Source: Opitutaceae bacterium
GTDB lineage: Bacteria > Verrucomicrobiota > Verrucomicrobiia > Opitutales > Opitutaceae
Direction: 5' to 3'
Length of the DNA: 64,000 nt
NCBI GenBank assembly: GCA_002694885.1
Contig: NZNM01000132.1
Location: 1 to 64,000, forward strand
Shown here: positions 2,593 through 17,842 of the stretch, one piece after another
How positions within the stretch are numbered: position 1 is the stretch's first letter
How the letters are laid out: each line of letters begins with the position of its first letter
Translations under genes and position numbers: made by a program
The notes under the pieces: generated by a model
The model's input: the letters and a program-made list of their open reading frames with translations, nothing else
Database searches by the model: none
What the model was told of the DNA's origin: nothing

Positions 2593-3366
2593 ATGAACTC
2601 TTCTATTAGAAAAAGACTGAGAGCCGGAGAAACGCTCATCGGCAGTTGGATTAATTCGGGAAGCCCGGTAATAGCGGAGCTCATGGCGACTACAGGTTTT
2701 GATTTCCTGTGTATCGATGCGGAACATTCGGCGGTCGATCTACCACAGGTTCAACAGATGTTTCAGGCCATGCACTCTGGCAATCCCAGCTGTGCCAATG
2801 TTGTCCGCCTACACGGAGTTGATTACTCTCTAGTAAAGCGTTATCTGGATGCGGGTGCGGATGGAGTAATCGCTCCGCTCGTTATGAGTCGAGCGGATGC
2901 GGAGTTATTGATCGAAGCGACTAAGTATCCTCCCATGGGCAACCGAGGTGTCGGGTTTTGTCGGGCGAATCAATATGGTTTGAATGTAAAACCGAGTGTC
3001 GATTCGGCCAACGAAAACGTTTTCGTAGCGGTTCAAATTGAGCATGTAGATGCCGTGGGATGCATAGACGATATTTTGGATGTCGAAGGCATCGATGCCG
3101 TGTTTATTGGGCCTTACGATCTGTCCGCATCCATGGGATTGACTGCTCAGTTCGATCATCCCGATTACATTGAGGTTAGAACGCATGTGCTAAATGCCTG
3201 TAGAGCAAAAGGCATTGCCGCTGGCATTCACGTGGTCCCACCGGATGTAGATCTATTTATAGAGCAAAACCGGGAAGGTTATCAACTTATGGCTTACAGC
3301 TTGGACATAACGATGGTCTTGGAAAGTTGTAAGAATGCGTTATCACAAATACGTTCCACGATCTAG
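2593..3366 (+). CDS. HpcH/HpaI family aldolase (class II pyruvate aldolase type)
   Basis: 257 aa; GSWINSGSPVIAELMATTGFDFLCIDAEHSAVD, VRLHGVDYSLVKRYLDAGADGVIAPLV, VQIEHVDAV, FIGPYDLSASMG. Confidence 0.92.
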   Translation: MNSSIRKRLRAGETLIGSWINSGSPVIAELMATTGFDFLCIDAEHSAVDLPQVQQMFQAMHSGNPSCANVVRLHGVDYSLVKRYLDAGADGVIAPLVMSRADAELLIEATKYPPMGNRGVGFCRANQYGLNVKPSVDSANENVFVAVQIEHVDAVGCIDDILDVEGIDAVFIGPYDLSASMGLTAQFDHPDYIEVRTHVLNACRAKGIAAGIHVVPPDVDLFIEQNREGYQLMAYSLDITMVLESCKNALSQIRSTI

Positions 3367-3400
3367 GGCTCCTATAGAACTGCCTCTCTAACCGATAGTC

Positions 3401-4111
3401 ATGTCATATTTCTACAAGACTGTAGCACTTCTGCCAATGAAGGCGCATAGCGCCAGGGTGAGAGGAAAGAATTTCAGGAATTTCGCAGGCAAGCCCTTGT
3501 TTCGTTGGATACTCGATACCTTGCTTTCGGTGGAAGAAATTGAAAAAATTATCATCAATACTGACGCCCGACAGATACTCAAAGAAAACGGTGTAATGGA
3601 TTCGGATCGGGTTTTGATAAGGGATCGAAAGCCGGAGATCTGTGGCGATCATGTGAGCATGAACCTTGTGATCGATGATGACCTTGCTGCAATCGACTCT
3701 AGGACTTTTGTAATGACTCACACGACAAATCCGCTCTTGACTGCAGTGACTATTCGAGAAGCGATTGAGGCTTATCAATTGGGAATTAGAGAGAAGGGAA
3801 AAGACAGCTTGTTTACCGTGAACGAATACCAGACTCGGTTTTATCGTGAAGATGGATCTGCAGTGAATCATGATCCGAACGATCTGCTCCCGACTCAAGA
3901 ATTGGAGCCCTGGTATGAAGAGAATTCTAATCTTTACATCTTTACTAAAGAGTCGTTCAAAAAAACCAACGCTCGAATAGGTGCGAACCCCATACTATTT
4001 CCCACACCTACCTTGGAGTCAGCTGATATTGATAATGCTACCCAGTGGCGGATTGCGGAGATCATTGCTCTGGCGGAAATGCTCGTGCAGACTGCTAACC
4101 CGCCTTCGTAG
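3401..4111 (+). CDS. CMP-N-acetylneuraminate (acylneuraminate) cytidylyltransferase family protein
   Basis: 236 aa; VALLPMKAHSARVRGKNFRNFAGKPLFRWILDTLLS...MTHTTNPLLTAVTIREAIEAY. Confidence 0.88.
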   Translation: MSYFYKTVALLPMKAHSARVRGKNFRNFAGKPLFRWILDTLLSVEEIEKIIINTDARQILKENGVMDSDRVLIRDRKPEICGDHVSMNLVIDDDLAAIDSRTFVMTHTTNPLLTAVTIREAIEAYQLGIREKGKDSLFTVNEYQTRFYREDGSAVNHDPNDLLPTQELEPWYEENSNLYIFTKESFKKTNARIGANPILFPTPTLESADIDNATQWRIAEIIALAEMLVQTANPPS

Positions 4112-4119
4112 TAGTCAGA

Positions 4120-4644
4120 ATGAGCTTTCTCGAATCCATGCGAACCATATTTGGAATGTGTGGTTCGTTGTACCAAAAGCGCCAAAACCAGAAAAGATTC
4201 CATGTGCGCAAGAATCATGGAGTTAAGGATCATTGGCACGTCTTCACGGGCAATGGGCCCCGCCTTAATCAAAATCCCCTGGAGAGGTGGGAGATAGGAT
4301 ACATATTAGGAATCAATGGACGCTTCCTCTTGTATGATGATATTTCCTGGCGGTCCAAATATTACTGCACTTTTAACCACCTTGTAGCGTCCCGCATTTC
4401 ATCGCAGATCGATATCCAATTCCTGCAGTGCCCGGATACATCCGCCATCATGCATGAACGGTACACCGATCTGCAGGATCGTGAGGACATTAATTGGACC
4501 CGAGAAAAATCGCGGGATTACTCCTTGGAGGCGGATGACTATTTTGCCACTAGGTCGATGGATCCCTTGAGAATTTCTAAAACCGTGATTATCAATTGCT
4601 TCGCGATTGAGGTATTCATAGGCACAAATTTGAGGTATTCATAG
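4120..4644 (+). pseudogene. Truncated DUF115/MptE-like protein homologous to the intact 17024..17842 protein
   Basis: HVFTGNGPRLNQNPLE...GINGRFLLYDDISWRSKYYC aligns by eye with VIVVGNGPSLNQHDLDELAGIPSFAANAIYLIFERTNWRPGYYS; ends after ...VFIGTNLRYS* opposite IFLIGCDTDYK, lacking the C-terminal ~third. Confidence 0.6.
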
Positions 4645-4652
4645 GCACAAAT
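4607..4652. repeat. Perfect 23-bp tandem duplication (ttgaggtattcataggcacaaat x2)
   Basis: Direct reading of 4607-4629 and 4630-4652. Confidence 0.95.
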
Positions 4653-4719: not shown

Positions 4720-5577
4720 TTGATAATAGATTTAACTCGAGGAAGAAGTTCTAATTTTAATGTATTCGAAATTTGGATGACCTACTTAGAGGGACAGAAA
4801 TTATTTTGGAAAGAATTGTTTGGGCAAGCAGATTTGTCTAAACGGATTTTTCTTCATAACTTCTTGGATGTGCACCGACAGCACCGACTTGGATTACTAT
4901 GGGTGATTGTCAATCCCTGTATCCCTTTAATAGTCTATAACTCGATGCAATTCCTAGGGATCTTCAAAGACACAAGCGCAGATATCCCCAGATCCGTTCA
5001 CCTTACGCTAGGTTTGTTGATTTACTACGCGTTTTCAGACGCTTTAAATTCATTTGCGGTATGCCTTCCTCAGAATGGACAGTACATTCTGAGGGGTGGT
5101 GTTTCAAAATTATCGGTGTATACGGGAACTTTTTATGAAGTTCTATCGAACTTCGTTATCATGTTTGTCGCCTTTATCGTTCTCTCTTATTTCGTAGGCT
5201 ACCAAGTCGGTTTGACGGTATTTTATATACCCCTAGTCGGATTAATAGCAATCAGTTTGGGAACATTGTTGGGCGTAATATTAAGCATTTTTTACGTTTA
5301 CTATCGAGACCTTGGAAACATACTTCGAATGTTTACTTTTTATCTGTTATTCGGATCTGGAGTATTCGGTGAAATCGAAGAGACCGGAACCTTTTTCGAT
5401 ATTCTACGCGCGAGCCCCTTGTACAAATTGATATATCAGGGGCGATCAATGCTATTTGAGAGTCAATTCATCATCGATAGTTCCACGCTATATCTATTTG
5501 GAGGATCTGTAGGTCTGTTAATCTTATTTATGGGTTTTTTCATGAGAGGGGAAAAACGTTTAAATGCATTCATCTAA
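4720..5577 (+). CDS. wzm: ABC-2 type polysaccharide export permease (Wzm/KpsM-like)
   Basis: 285 aa multi-TM; KRIFLHNFLDVHRQHRLGLLWVIVNPCIPLIVY; immediately followed by the Wzt-like ATPase. Confidence 0.85.
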   Translation: MIIDLTRGRSSNFNVFEIWMTYLEGQKLFWKELFGQADLSKRIFLHNFLDVHRQHRLGLLWVIVNPCIPLIVYNSMQFLGIFKDTSADIPRSVHLTLGLLIYYAFSDALNSFAVCLPQNGQYILRGGVSKLSVYTGTFYEVLSNFVIMFVAFIVLSYFVGYQVGLTVFYIPLVGLIAISLGTLLGVILSIFYVYYRDLGNILRMFTFYLLFGSGVFGEIEETGTFFDILRASPLYKLIYQGRSMLFESQFIIDSSTLYLFGGSVGLLILFMGFFMRGEKRLNAFI

Positions 5578-6919
5578 GAATAGCCTGGACTGTCTATTAA
5601 CCGTTCGAAACTTATCAAAACGGTTCAACTTGAATCCAGAAAAAGTCAGAAGTACGAGTTTGATTGACGTGCTTCGGCATATGTTTTTGCCCAATCCTGA
5701 ATTTGAGCGAGGATCTGAAGAAAACGAGTTTTGGGCTGTCAAAGATGTTTCCTTTACTTTGAAGAAAGGGGAGTCGCTTGGCGTTATGGGTATGAACGGG
5801 GCAGGCAAAAGTACACTGCTCAAAATGCTCCTTGGCCGACTCGATCAAGATGAGGGAGAAATAGAGATCGCAGGGAAAATCGGGGGGCTTATTGAATTGA
5901 GTGCAGGCATGCACCCCGAGTTGAGCGGTCGAGAGAATATTTACAACAAAGCCCGATTGATGGGCGTACCCAGAAATGAAATACTGGAGCGAATAGATGA
6001 GATTATTGAGTTCGCCGATATCGGCGAGTTTGTCGATTCGCCGGTCAAAACTTACAGCAGCGGTATGCACATCCGGCTGGGCTTTTCTGTTACGGTCTTC
6101 TTCCAGACAGATTTTGTTCTATGCGATGAGGTCCTTGCCGTGGGTGATTTCGATTTTCGTCAGAAATGCCTTAACAAGATCAATCAGCTTAGGAGGGATC
6201 GTGGCTTTGTTCTGGTTTCACACAGTGCGAAAGACATCTCGGTCTTTTGTGATAAGGTCATGGTTCTCCACAAGGGCAGCAGTATATTTTTCGGAGAACC
6301 GGAAAAGGGTATTGAAATCTTCTACAAGTTGGATCGCCACATGGAGGTAAATGAGGCGATGGCTATTTCAAGATCACTACAGGGTGAAACAGAACATGCT
6401 GCCGTCGAATACCATAGCAGCCCTCTCAAGCAGGAAGATGATGCAGAAAGAAGTGAAGACCTGAGCCTGGAAGTTAAGAATGAGCTTTTTTGGCCCGAGT
6501 ATCACAATAAGGATTTGGTAGGCAAATTTGAGATGACCTGGAATCTGCAAAAAAGGGAAGGCAAGTTCATTTATGTTCCAGGATCTAAATTTGTAATGAC
6601 GATTCGATACGTCTTGAAACAAAATATAGATAACGGGCGTATCGGGATTCCCTTCTTTGATGAGCATGGGCAAATGATATTCGGTCCGGATACCAGGCGG
6701 GTGGAAGAACGGTTTCTCCTGAACAACAAGGGCATGAAAGAGATTAGCTTTGATTTACCTAACTTGCCTGTTAACGAAGGCCGATATTGGGTGACCGTAT
6801 CGATATGCGATGATCCAGCCCAAATATTTCGCAAGCACCTGACTTTTTTCGATGTACCCAATGAAACGGGCCAATTTGGAATGATCGAGGTTCCAGACGT
6901 GAATTGGTCTATTGGCTGA
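5564..6919 (+). CDS. wzt: Polysaccharide ABC transporter ATP-binding protein with C-terminal Wzt-like carbohydrate-binding domain
   Basis: 451 aa; Walker A MGMNGAGKSTLLKML, YSSGMHIRLGFSV, VLCDEVLAVGD; ~150 aa C-terminal extension. Confidence 0.92.
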   Translation: MHSSKNSLDCLLTVRNLSKRFNLNPEKVRSTSLIDVLRHMFLPNPEFERGSEENEFWAVKDVSFTLKKGESLGVMGMNGAGKSTLLKMLLGRLDQDEGEIEIAGKIGGLIELSAGMHPELSGRENIYNKARLMGVPRNEILERIDEIIEFADIGEFVDSPVKTYSSGMHIRLGFSVTVFFQTDFVLCDEVLAVGDFDFRQKCLNKINQLRRDRGFVLVSHSAKDISVFCDKVMVLHKGSSIFFGEPEKGIEIFYKLDRHMEVNEAMAISRSLQGETEHAAVEYHSSPLKQEDDAERSEDLSLEVKNELFWPEYHNKDLVGKFEMTWNLQKREGKFIYVPGSKFVMTIRYVLKQNIDNGRIGIPFFDEHGQMIFGPDTRRVEERFLLNNKGMKEISFDLPNLPVNEGRYWVTVSICDDPAQIFRKHLTFFDVPNETGQFGMIEVPDVNWSIG

Positions 6920-7008: not shown

Positions 7009-9141
7009 CTATACGGATCTTTCCGCCAGGCAGGGAATATATGAGTGCGTAAAGCTATTGAACTTAATCCCCTGTTCCTCGCCGGCGTCTATCATATTGC
7101 TTAGATTATCACAATGGTGGTCATAATAATCCGCATAATTACAATGATCGAAAAATCCGGGATGGAAATTTCGAGCCTCCTGCATAAGGTCTGAAAATTG
7201 GGAAGCTTTGTCATGCTTCCAAAAGTAGTTTTCATCCGGCTTCCTTCCATCACAGCCAAGGATATACAGATCGTTGCTGAGAGTAGCTCCAAGAGGAATC
7301 ATCAAAATAGTCAGGATATTATCGGAACCTCGTACCAGAAGCTGCTGCTTTAAATCGAACCGGTAATCCGTATTTGGATCTTGATGAACACCAATGCTTG
7401 AAGCGTTGAGGAAAGGATATTGGGACGCGAAATTGGGATAAAAGAAAAAGGGCAAGAGGAAAGTCAGGTCATAGTCCAAAATCGCGGTGACCAGGCTTCG
7501 GCGAAAGGATGATGCGTATTTTGACGCACCAAAGTGAAACACCGGATCAGCGGCCACTACGAAGTGCGGCTTAATGTGATCCATGAGCTTCTTGTTGCTA
7601 ATAAGGCTATTGCAGACGATCCGGTAACCGTCAGAAAAGTCATGCTTAATGGCGTCACTTAAAGAGGGGCCTGTGCAAAACAAATAGGACTTTTCGTAAC
7701 TGGGAAGGCTCTTAATCTTGGCTTGTAGCTTCCAAGGCATTTCTTCAGTCATGGATTTCCTTAAGGACCAGGAAAGCTCATGGAGCAGAACGCCATAGCT
7801 AAAGGCTTCCCGTCTCGATTTGTTATTCTTGTCCAGGTTGAAGATTCGAATGTCCTCCAGGTCAGAGATCTGATTTTCTGTTGCTTCAAAGCTCTTCCAA
7901 ATTCCAATCGTCCTGGACTGTGACATCAGGGCCTGCGTTTTTTGCGAGCCGGGCTCTAAAGAGACTACACTGATGTTGTTTTCCATTCCCGATAAGAGGG
8001 ACCTCTGTTCGAGCCTGATTTTTTCTTCGAGTGATGTGCTGATCAGCAATCGGCAGGAAATCTCGCTGGCTGAAGGTATATACCATGCGAGTCGATGAAT
8101 TTGATCTCTCAGGTCCTCCATAGATTCAAACACTGGAAACAGCGTCAAATCGATATTTTTGCCTTGGGGAAGTACCTGTTTGATCTTCGAGGTTTCCGTT
8201 AGCTTTTCCCAATCGGGCAGATGTTTGCTCAAGCCCTTCTCCGCCTCATCCCGATCCAGGTAGTGTCCGCTTAAGAGCTGCAGGATGGCCCGATTCGAGA
8301 AATTATATTTTTTCCAGAGCTCATTTTGCATCGTTTCCAGCTCATTCAAGCGAGCCTCATCGAGATCCTCCTTGGAGAAATTGTCCAGAAAGGATGAAGC
8401 ACCTAGGATCTTTGCTTCCGCATAAGCCGTAATCCATCTGGGGTGTGCGAAACTGAAAAATTTAAGAGAGGCTTTGAGTGAATCAAGAATCTGGATCTCA
8501 CGTTGTGCCACCGATTTTGCATCCTGGTGTAATATTGCGCAGGACAGATCCTCGTCTAGGAAATGAAAACTGGCACCGGAAAATACGAGTTGCATCCAAA
8601 ACTCATAATCCATGCATGACTGGTTTTCTTCGTTGAGAATTCCAGAGTCCGTCAGAATTTCTTTTCGGAAAAATACGGATGGCTGAATGATCCCAACCGA
8701 TCCGGCCAAAGTATATTTTAGCTTCGACGGCTCTGATTGAATCCAGGCTTCTTTTTTCTCTTCGCCCGGAAGTTGTATATAAGCACCCCTGCCGTAAACG
8801 ACGTCGATCTCTGGCCGTTCAGCAAATACCTTCGCGACTACGGTCAAGCTTTCATTGCTTGCATAGAAGTCGTCGGCATTTAACCAGGCCACCATGTCAC
8901 CACTGGCGATCCGGAATCCTTTGTTGATGGCCTCAGATTGCCCAGAGTCAGGTTCGGAAATCCAGAACAAGGGTTTAACCGGATCGAAACTTTTTAAAAT
9001 CGAAACTGAGTTATCTGTGGAACCTCCATCAATGACCACGTGTTCGATGGCATCGTAGTTCTGGGAATCGACGGATTCCAAATTATTCAGAAGAAATGAA
9101 CCCTGGTTATAATTAGGCGTAATAATGGTAAATTTGAGCAT
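7009..9141 (-). CDS. Family 2 glycosyltransferase fused to a C-terminal DUF115/MptE-like domain
   Basis: 710 aa; N-term FTIITPNYNQGSFLLNNLESVDSQNYDAIEHVVIDGGSTDNS; C-term YLFCTGPSLSDAIKHDFSDGYRIVCNSLISNKKLMDHIKPHFVVAADPVFHFG. Confidence 0.8.
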   Translation of the reverse strand: MLKFTIITPNYNQGSFLLNNLESVDSQNYDAIEHVVIDGGSTDNSVSILKSFDPVKPLFWISEPDSGQSEAINKGFRIASGDMVAWLNADDFYASNESLTVVAKVFAERPEIDVVYGRGAYIQLPGEEKKEAWIQSEPSKLKYTLAGSVGIIQPSVFFRKEILTDSGILNEENQSCMDYEFWMQLVFSGASFHFLDEDLSCAILHQDAKSVAQREIQILDSLKASLKFFSFAHPRWITAYAEAKILGASSFLDNFSKEDLDEARLNELETMQNELWKKYNFSNRAILQLLSGHYLDRDEAEKGLSKHLPDWEKLTETSKIKQVLPQGKNIDLTLFPVFESMEDLRDQIHRLAWYIPSASEISCRLLISTSLEEKIRLEQRSLLSGMENNISVVSLEPGSQKTQALMSQSRTIGIWKSFEATENQISDLEDIRIFNLDKNNKSRREAFSYGVLLHELSWSLRKSMTEEMPWKLQAKIKSLPSYEKSYLFCTGPSLSDAIKHDFSDGYRIVCNSLISNKKLMDHIKPHFVVAADPVFHFGASKYASSFRRSLVTAILDYDLTFLLPFFFYPNFASQYPFLNASSIGVHQDPNTDYRFDLKQQLLVRGSDNILTILMIPLGATLSNDLYILGCDGRKPDENYFWKHDKASQFSDLMQEARNFHPGFFDHCNYADYYDHHCDNLSNMIDAGEEQGIKFNSFTHSYIPCLAERSV

Positions 9142-13636: not shown

Positions 13637-14460
13637 ATGAAAGGCAAAAGATACACGACAGAACAGAAGATCCGCATCCTGCGGGAGGCTGAGAGAAGCG
13701 ATAAAACGATTTTGGATGTCCAATGCGAGCAGCAGATAAGCGAGCAAACATTCCACCGTTGGAAGAAGGAGTTCGGCATTATGGAGGTCGACCAGGCCAA
13801 GCAGCTCAAGGAGCTTCAGAAGGAGAACGCTAGGCTCAAGCGAATGCTCGTCGACGAGATGCTGGGCAAAGAGCATTTGAAGGAGGCTCTGGAAAAAACA
13901 GTGAGCCCGGGACACAAGCGTCAGATCGCCGAAAAGCTTGTATCCGGGGGCCGTTGTACCGCTCGGGCGGCTTGCCGCCACTTCGGGCTGCATCGCAGCA
14001 CGTTCGCCTATCGGGCGAAACAGCCCGACGCCTGGCTGTCGAAGCTCAAGGCGGCGGTTCGTCGAGCCTCCAATCTATATCCGGAAATGGGATACCCGAA
14101 GATAGCCCGCTTGCTTAAGCGGGAGGGCTGGTCGGTGGGCACCCGGATGGTCTAACGGCTGCGTCGCGAACTCGGTTTGGCCGTTGCTGCGAAGAAGCCC
14201 AGACGCCGGCACCGAGGTCCCAGTACGGGCATGCCGACCAAGGCGACGCATCGCAACCACGTCTGGAGCTGGGACTTCGTTCACGACACGACGATACACG
14301 GCGGAACGCTTCGCATGCTCAACGTACTGGACGAGCACACTCTGTAATGCCTATGCATCCACGTGGATCGCCGGATCGACGCTCGCAAGGTCAGGCGGAT
14401 CATATCGGCGTTGATCGAGCGACATGGAGCGTCCGATCACGTCCGCAGCGACAACGCTGA
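13637..14460 (+). pseudogene. IS3-family transposase (OrfA+OrfB continuous frame), interrupted by TAA at 14153-14155 and 14345-14347 and 3' truncated
   Basis: MKGKRYTTEQKIRILREAERSDKTILDVQCEQQISEQTFHRWKKEFG (OrfA HTH) ... YPEMGYPKIARLLKREGWSVGTRMV*RLRRELGL...HRNHVWSWDFVHDTTIHGGTLRMLNVLDEHTL*CLCIHVDRRIDARKVRRIISALIERHGASDHVRSDN, all in one frame. Confidence 0.88.
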
Positions 14461-15907: not shown

Positions 15908-16102
15908 TTATACTCTAGGTCTCCAATGTTCATGTAATCGAACTCTATCAGGAACAGCAAATATAACTCTGCGAAGCCGAGTGCCTGCGCTGACTCTGCA
16001 ATAATAAGGGCTTCCTGAAAACTCGCGAAATTTTTTCCCTTTAACTCTCTCGTTGTTCGCCTTCATGGGCAGGAGAGCGACTAAATCATATTTGGTTGCC
16101 AT
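15908..16102 (-). pseudogene. Truncated acylneuraminate cytidylyltransferase (second copy; N-terminal ~30 aa only)
   Basis: MATKYDLVALLPMKANNERVKGKKFREFSG vs MSYFYKTVALLPMKAHSARVRGKNFRNFAG of 3401..4111; similarity lost afterwards. Confidence 0.75.
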
Positions 16103-16110
16103 ATCTGGGG

Positions 16111-16898
16111 TCATTTTTTTGGTAATGCGGTGCGTATTTCGTTTAAGCCATCGATACACGTAGTCAGAACCATTGTTATATCTAGGCAGTATGCAAGTAG
16201 ATGGAAGCCGTCTGATATTCGATCAATCACTTGCTTGGCGTCTGGCTGGACGACGTTGATGCCAGGAGTCACACCATTGCGCTGGCAAGACGCGAGAATC
16301 TCGTTCCGAGCGGCGATAAAGTCGGGATGCTCGAAGTCTCCAGTTATCCCCATAGACGCGGTTATATCGTATGGTCCGATAAAGGCTGCGTCGATCCCCT
16401 CGACAGCCAAAATATCGTCTATGTTGGCTACTGCTTCGATATCTTCGATTCGCACGGCCACCAGGATCTCTTCATTGGCTGACTTGTAGTGCGCTTCCAC
16501 ACCCATGCCGTACTTGTTAGCTCGGCAGAAGCGGACGCCTCTTTTACCCAGAGGCGGATACTAGGAAGCTCGAACCAACAGCTGTGCTTCTTCTGCGTTC
16601 AGAATCAAAGGAGCGATAATGCCGGTTGCCCCGCATCAAGGTAGCGTTTCGTAAAAGCGTAGTCGACGCCATGTAGCCGAACAAATGCTTCGGTATTTGG
16701 GTTTCCAGACCGAATCGCTTGGAAAATCGGCTGTGCGTCAGTGAGATCTACAGCAGAATGCTCTGCATCTACTGTGACGAAATCAAACCCGGTGTTGGCC
16801 ATTAGTTCGCCGATGATCGGAGATCCGGAATTTAGCCAGCTCCCCACAACGGGTATTCCAGACTTGAGCTTCGCTCGAACAGACTGATGTTTTTCCAT
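16111..16898 (-). pseudogene. HpcH/HpaI aldolase (second copy), inactivated by 1-nt frameshift near 16630 and in-frame TAG near 16561
   Basis: MEKHQSVRAKLKSGIPVVGSWLNSGSPIIGELMANTGFDFVTVDAEHSAVD...KRYLDAG / (shifted) ATGIIAPLILNAEEAQLLVRAS*YPPLGKRGVRFCRANKYGMGV...VRIEDIEAVANIDDILAVEGIDAAFIGPYDITASMG. Confidence 0.88.
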
Positions 16899-17023: not shown

Positions 17024-17842
17024 ATGGGCAGCGATTTTATGAAAGTCTGGCAGCTAGGTTCAGATGACTATCCAAAACTGGATAGGGAAAGCGTTATCGT
17101 GGTTGGCAATGGACCGTCACTGAACCAGCATGACTTGGATGAATTGGCGGGGATTCCTTCTTTCGCAGCTAATGCCATTTACTTGATTTTCGAGAGAACC
17201 AATTGGCGCCCGGGTTACTATTCATGTGTCGATACCGTAGTGCTTCCAGATAGAAAAGAGGAAATATCGCATTGGATTGACCGATTACCCGATACGTTGT
17301 TCTTCTTCCCGAAAGAAATATATACTCATGATTGTACAGGAACTCCTGTTTGTGTTGAAACCTTTATAAAGCCTAGACCAAACGTCCGATTCTTCAAAAC
17401 TCAATCGCTGAATCTCAATGGTCCGCAAGAAAATGTCTTTAGCCTTTCTAAAGATCATTTTATTGTGGAACCAATGACTGTGACTATCACGCTGATGCAA
17501 TTGGCTGTCAAATTTGGAGCAAAACGTATTTTTTTGATTGGCTGCGATACGGATTATAAGATTCCCGAAACGGCGAAAGTGCTGGATAAGGATGACAACC
17601 GTGTCGACAAGCGTATTGTCTTGGATGAAGACAATGACCCTAACCATTTTGATCCGAGATACTTCGGAATGGGCAAATTATGGCATACGCCTAATACTAC
17701 CTTGATGCTAGAGCATTACGAAAAGGCTTACGAAATATGTAAAGCTAACGGTATCGAGGTTTACAATGCCGGTTTCGGTGGCATGCTAGAAGTTTTTCCG
17801 CGCGTGTCTTTCGCGCATGCCGTTGAGGTATGTAGAGGGTGA
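17024..17842 (+). CDS. DUF115 / MptE-like (6-hydroxymethylpterin pyrophosphokinase-like) protein, possible glycosyltransferase
   Basis: 272 aa; VIVVGNGPSLNQHDLDELAGIPSFAANAIY...FGAKRIFLIGCDTDYKI. Confidence 0.75.
   Translation: MGSDFMKVWQLGSDDYPKLDRESVIVVGNGPSLNQHDLDELAGIPSFAANAIYLIFERTNWRPGYYSCVDTVVLPDRKEEISHWIDRLPDTLFFFPKEIYTHDCTGTPVCVETFIKPRPNVRFFKTQSLNLNGPQENVFSLSKDHFIVEPMTVTITLMQLAVKFGAKRIFLIGCDTDYKIPETAKVLDKDDNRVDKRIVLDEDNDPNHFDPRYFGMGKLWHTPNTTLMLEHYEKAYEICKANGIEVYNAGFGGMLEVFPRVSFAHAVEVCRG

Follow-up and report, generated by a model that had tools for sequence, protein, structure and literature searches.

A NeuB-free aldolase-cytidylyltransferase cassette in Opitutaceae and a candidate route to CMP-activated short ulosonic acids

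The cassette and its degraded second copy

The DNA analysed here, referred to as the window, comprises positions 1-64,000 (64,000 nucleotides, forward strand) of contig NZNM01000132.1 from the Opitutaceae bacterium assembly GCA_002694885.1. Two intact forward-strand genes lie near its start, with ATP synthase genes upstream and a Wzm/Wzt-type polysaccharide exporter downstream. The first encodes an HpcH/HpaI class II pyruvate aldolase (2593-3366) and the second, 34 bp further on, a NeuA/PseF-like cytidylyltransferase (3401-4111), here also called the synthetase. The exporter genes, on the same strand, encode a Wzm-like ABC-2 membrane subunit (4720-5577; PF01061) and an ABC ATPase with a Wzt C-terminal glycan-binding domain (5564-6919; PF00005 and PF14524). 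A GT2 protein (7009-9141) follows, whose C-terminal half resembles DUF115 in a weak tblastn match (E 6e-4). No clear island boundary was found in the GC profile of the window.

The original prediction described a DUF115-like gene after the pair as the transferase of the cassette. The open reading frame in question (4120-4644, forward strand) is of DUF115 (MptE-like) origin, as it aligns to residues 4-189 of a 293-aa DUF115-type orthologue in genome G120 at 44% identity. However, it is the remnant of a putative transferase that lacks its C-terminal third and has no Pfam match, PF01973 included. A 23-bp perfect tandem duplication (4607-4652, forward strand) marks its broken end. Compared with G120, pN/pS is 0.085 for the aldolase and 0.11 for the cytidylyltransferase, both of which are under strong purifying selection; it is 0.34 for the DUF115 remnant, which evolves under relaxed constraint. 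A pair of intact DUF115 orthologues gives 0.125. These values indicate that the aldolase and synthetase are kept while the remnant decays, and the remnant is no working gene.

A plausible working transferase lies instead at 17024-17842 on the forward strand, where an intact DUF115 (MptE-like) protein matches PF01973 (E 8.5e-11) and is a candidate CMP-ulosonate transferase. Its predicted model (pLDDT 89) has among its top PDB matches the flagellin-modifying Maf (5mu5) and the sialyltransferases CstI and CstII, with TM-scores of about 0.5; some of the matched CstII structures contain CMP or a CMP-sugar analogue. This likeness is consistent with a CMP-sugar-acid donor. The protein shares with Maf and CstI/CstII the DUF115 (PF01973) domain with its CstII-like fold (PMC11339370). 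Maf, however, is a three-domain protein, whereas the window protein is a stand-alone domain in a polysaccharide locus.

The intact DUF115 gene adjoins, in divergent orientation, a second copy of the cassette (15908-16898) that the original prediction had not mentioned. It consists of a degraded aldolase (16111-16898, reverse strand; frame broken between 16605 and 16635), whose pieces are 65-77% identical to the copy in the same-genus genome G005, and an N-terminal cytidylyltransferase stub (15908-16159, reverse strand; about 39 homologous codons) that is 77% identical to the G005 synthetase. A transposase remnant was seen by inspection nearby (13637-14414). The aldolase and synthetase of the first copy are 86-87% identical to those of G120, which belongs to a different family. 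The exporter genes share only 35-42% identity with their counterparts next to the G120 cassette (35% for the Wzm-like subunit), so the idea that the whole exporter block travels with the cassette was rejected, and the mobile unit seems to comprise just the two or three genes of the cassette. We infer from these sequences a replacement, in which the newer cassette would supply the aldolase and synthetase and the old one would still supply the transferase. Directly upstream of the G120 cassette (L059 10490-13414), inspection of the sequence revealed CysN/CysD/CysC-like genes for PAPS synthesis; a sulfated glycan is possible there.

Identity of the two enzymes

The aldolase matches PF03328 with an E-value of 2e-35 (122 bits; cut-off 25). 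Its catalytic positions, said in the original prediction to be retained, are indeed conserved across 10 close homologues (DAEH, RLHGVDY, Q-EH and GPYD). H45, R72, E150 and D176 are invariant in the close-homologue alignment; the His and Arg are the catalytic residues of the family, and the Glu and Asp bind the metal. The roles of His45 and Arg70 have been described in HpaI (PMC8560999). The nearest PDB entries are HpcH/HpaI aldolases, HpaI and YfaU among them, and PF03328, the class II metal site and pyruvate aldol chemistry are common to the window aldolase and HpaI/GarL/RhmA (YfaU). In contrast to the catabolic neighbourhood of those enzymes, the neighbourhood of the window aldolase is biosynthetic, and it falls far under the curated cut-offs of the HpaI, GarL and RhmA equivalogs (172 of 368.8 bits for HpaI). 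HpcH aldolases join pyruvate, and some of them hydroxypyruvate, to glycolaldehyde, glyceraldehyde or erythrose to yield 4-hydroxy-2-oxo acids (PMC7610986).

The cytidylyltransferase matches PF02348 (E 2e-15; 57 bits, cut-off 22.6), and its clade, at 60-86% identity, extends over many phyla. In a fold comparison of its predicted model (pLDDT 88), synthetases of CMP-Neu5Ac, CMP-Kdn and CMP-Pse rank before KdsB and IspD, with 6ifd, 9t4z and 9ftb as the top matches. The NeuA-like identity given in the original prediction therefore holds. The best NCBIfam model is PseF (TIGR03584), whose equivalog cut-off is missed by far (66.7 against 205.7 bits). The DxD metal pair D209-I-D211 is kept in at least 95% of 84 synthetase sequences, and the pair D209/D211 is needed for catalysis in the CMP-Neu5Ac synthetase of N. 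meningitidis (PMC2901514). In the meningococcal enzyme, Gln104 is needed for Neu5Ac binding (PMC2901514). This Gln104 aligns with a near-invariant His107 in the synthetase clade, and Arg165 with a near-invariant Thr165; having neither Gln104 nor Arg165, the window enzyme does not qualify as a CMP-Neu5Ac synthetase proper. The CMP-Pse synthetase 9ftb has Ser at the position aligned to Arg165, and since it too is without the Arg, the sugar-site substitutions were dropped as proof against any nonulosonate.

Partner genes and PEP-dependent synthases

Among 141 relatives covered, the close synthetase clade (60-86% identity) occurs at 13 loci in 12 genomes. The aldolase lies immediately upstream of the synthetase at nine of these loci (the window, G120, G135, G128, G116, G099, G007, G006 and G005), an adjacency kept at 58-87% identity. 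A 2-hydroxyacid dehydrogenase stands by the synthetase at two (G062 and G091), and neither partner at the other two. As a control, distant NeuA-like genes of the same order had an aldolase at none of 13 loci and NeuB at two of 13. The pairing of aldolase and cytidylyltransferase is more than chance. In G116 (L063 8735-10116), a second, very divergent cytidylyltransferase-like gene is present between the aldolase and the synthetase.

A wider scan, with one genome per GTDB species, identified 211 synthetase relatives, of which the 80 nearest loci were read with flanks of up to 10 kb. These loci were chosen through conserved peptides as nearest to the query, so their proportions describe the synthetase clade only, and partners were found by single-sequence searches, in which very divergent ones may be missed. 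They span Verrucomicrobiota, Pseudomonadota, Planctomycetota, Cyanobacteriota, Nitrospirota, Myxococcota, Bacteroidota and Thermodesulfobacteriota. Within 3 kb of the synthetase, 60 loci have a D-2-hydroxyacid dehydrogenase, 12 an aldolase, eight neither (in five of these, one flank is shorter than 3 kb) and none both. All 12 aldolase-bearing loci are from Verrucomicrobiota, and 10 of them also have a DUF115 gene. No relative of the cytidylyltransferase was found in phages.

The typical dehydrogenase locus carries a lactonase-like gene, a GT2 gene, the synthetase, the D-2-hydroxyacid dehydrogenase and a glucose-dehydrogenase-like SDR. GT2 is found in 56 and the SDR in 43 of the 60 loci; the lactonase-like gene, with a UlaG-like metallo-beta-lactamase fold or of the SMP-30 type, is found in 34 and missing from 26. 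Lactonase-like, GT2, SDR and dehydrogenase genes were all absent near the 12 aldolase loci. This module is annotated only generically, for example on plasmid p4SUD7 of Sulfitobacter sp. D7 (L075-L154). At eight loci (e.g. L133 8288-9955) the GT2 encoded before the cytidylyltransferase carries a fused UlaG-like metallo-beta-lactamase domain; an apparent GT2-cytidylyltransferase fusion in L139 was rejected as an out-of-frame artefact. The dehydrogenase is nearest in sequence to phosphoglycerate dehydrogenase, so the oxidative route set out below is a guess. The same kinship, together with the presence of IspD and TarI in the cytidylyltransferase superfamily, would suit an enzyme that activates, in place of a cyclic ulosonic acid, a different hydroxy or phospho acid to its CMP or CDP derivative. 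We regard this as highly improbable, as CMP-nonulosonate synthetases stand far ahead of IspD and TarI in the fold ranking.

In a tree of 84 synthetase sequences, 14 of the 15 aldolase-linked rows fall into one Verrucomicrobiota group (SH-aLRT 93), and the aldolase label requires four changes compared with 14.1 in shuffles, although deep branches are weak. This clustering is as expected for a partner swap. Two loci inside the group (L107 and L108) have neither partner nearby. At the threshold used, no alignment column of the synthetase tells aldolase-linked and dehydrogenase-linked members cleanly apart, in keeping with substrates that are the same or closely alike.

No NeuB was found in the window, in agreement with the original prediction, and none in five of the 12 clade-carrying genomes (G005, G062, G099, G120 and G135; 94-99% complete). 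The sole NeuB of the window genome (G000) is a 153-aa fragment on contig 82; there (L006 1447-2613) a NeuB/PseI-like fragment adjoins a PseB-like fragment. A pseudaminate-type pathway appears to have been lost from this genome. NeuB lies within 3 kb of the synthetase at none of the 80 GTDB loci. HpcH-NeuA pairs lacking NeuB, which the original prediction proposed to look for, recur in relatives, and NeuB is neither clustered with the synthetase nor needed. These absences weigh against a CMP synthetase for a nonulosonic acid of the Pse, Leg or Neu type that is fed by a NeuB encoded elsewhere, with the aldolase as a NanA-like lyase for recycling or as an incidental neighbour, and so does the replacement of the Neu5Ac-binding Gln104 by His107. 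Such an enzyme would be in keeping with the sub-threshold PseF match, the likeness of the RTQDLE register to RSQDLE in 9ftb, a CMP-Pse synthetase, and the NeuB present in some relatives, but we consider it distinctly unlikely.

That KdsA is missing from the window does not by itself speak against Kdo as the substrate. KdsA scores over its cut-off in 11 and KdsB in all 12 of the clade-carrying genomes; the KdsA model had no match in the window genome's assembly, which is incomplete. Because these genes are encoded elsewhere in relatives, Kdo is a possible substrate, at least in relatives. The cytidylyltransferase might accordingly draw Kdo, modified or not, from the housekeeping KdsA pathway and activate it, with the aldolase or dehydrogenase merely modifying or trimming the pool. 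A DUF115-containing Maf can use CMP-Kdo as a donor (PMC11339370), which agrees with this proposal. However, every clade-carrying genome already has the separate KdsB, fold and sequence group the enzyme with CMP-nonulosonate synthetases and not with KdsB, and the mutually exclusive aldolase and dehydrogenase partners would be left unexplained. Activation of Kdo is therefore unlikely.

The aldolase itself could run in the opposite direction. Aldolases of the same clade (61-64% identity) occur in TonB/transporter loci without such a cytidylyltransferase, so the cassette aldolase may run as a lyase. Four such loci (L071-L074) also encode TonB receptors, transporters and a propeller-like protein of a conserved family, and may represent a catabolic counterpart of the cassette; searches for sialidase or Kdo-hydrolase kinship of the propeller-like protein returned neither Pfam nor PDB matches. 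A catabolic aldolase in the cassette would cleave a keto acid released from a glycan, to balance or degrade the pool. We find this very unlikely, since the cassette aldolase is linked with CMP activation and DUF115 rather than with uptake, and since it replaces the dehydrogenase module and does not accompany it.

Proposed pathway and significance

The reading that we lean towards, and hold to be somewhat probable, is that the genes of the cassette together build a short ulosonic (2-keto sugar) acid and activate it, with no need of a PEP-dependent synthase. The substrate is probably a C5-C7 ulosonic acid. First, the HpcH/HpaI aldolase would form a 4-hydroxy-2-oxo acid of about C5-C7 from a small hydroxyaldehyde and either pyruvate or hydroxypyruvate. 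Aldol products of at least five carbons can ring-close and carry CMP at C2. No gene for producing the aldehyde accompanies the cassette consistently. The NeuA-like enzyme, judged by its fold and conserved metal site, would then use CTP to couple the anomeric hydroxyl of the acid to CMP, and release of pyrophosphate would pull the reversible aldol reaction forward. Finally, a DUF115 protein with a Maf/CstII-like fold would put the residue on the glycan exported by Wzm/Wzt. Because the adjacent copy is broken, the transferase of the window genome is likely the intact DUF115 protein at 17024-17842.

In most other bacteria, the same synthetase may be fed oxidatively by the SDR, the lactonase-like protein and the D-2-hydroxyacid dehydrogenase. 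The dehydrogenase operon can be read as the conversion of an aldose to a lactone (SDR), of the lactone to an aldonate (lactonase) and of the aldonate to a 2-ketoaldonate (dehydrogenase), which would be the same product class. In our reading, a single CMP-ulosonate synthetase is served by either of two exchangeable front ends, one oxidative and one based on the aldolase. The original prediction, in which an aldolase product is activated with CMP and transferred by DUF115, stands in the conserved pairing, the freedom from NeuB and the CMP-nonulosonate type of fold, but the aldolase is just one of two alternative partners. Since most relatives carry the dehydrogenase, what is general is a NeuB-free CMP-ulosonate and not an aldolase-based one.

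The cassette has in common with the NeuB-NeuA, PseI-PseF and legionaminate pathways a NeuA/PseF-like cytidylyltransferase, a DUF115/Maf or sialyltransferase-like partner and a surface glycan locus. Unlike these pathways, which use NeuB, it has an aldolase or dehydrogenase front end, and its synthetase belongs to a distinct clade that scores below the NCBIfam equivalog cut-offs. With the Kdo pathway (KdsA-KdsC-KdsB) it shares the CMP activation of a 2-keto sugar acid, but it has no PEP synthase and its synthetase is no KdsB orthologue, KdsB being separate. To our knowledge, every CMP-activated sugar acid characterised so far originates from a PEP-dependent synthase, either NeuB or KdsA. A search of the open-licence literature for an aldolase- or dehydrogenase-cytidylyltransferase combination found nothing relevant. 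We tentatively suggest, as a possibility with less than even chances, that CMP-activated hex-2-ulosonic or other short ulosonic acids form a widespread undescribed class reached by two convergent, interchangeable routes, through aldose oxidation by the SDR, lactonase and D-2-hydroxyacid dehydrogenase in many phyla and through a single aldol step that starts from hydroxypyruvate or pyruvate in Verrucomicrobiota.

A NeuB-independent module of this kind in many phyla would imply that genome surveys relying on NeuB as their marker overlook a whole class of acidic sugars at the cell surface. The module would also supply a pathway to short ulosonic acids known from capsules. One example of such an acid is the 4-deoxy-2-hexulosonic acid of the E. 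coli K3 antigen, named in the title of a work cited in PMC10433991; a tie between the cassette and the K3 cluster is hypothetical. The cassette would, in addition, represent a short route to new CMP-sugars.
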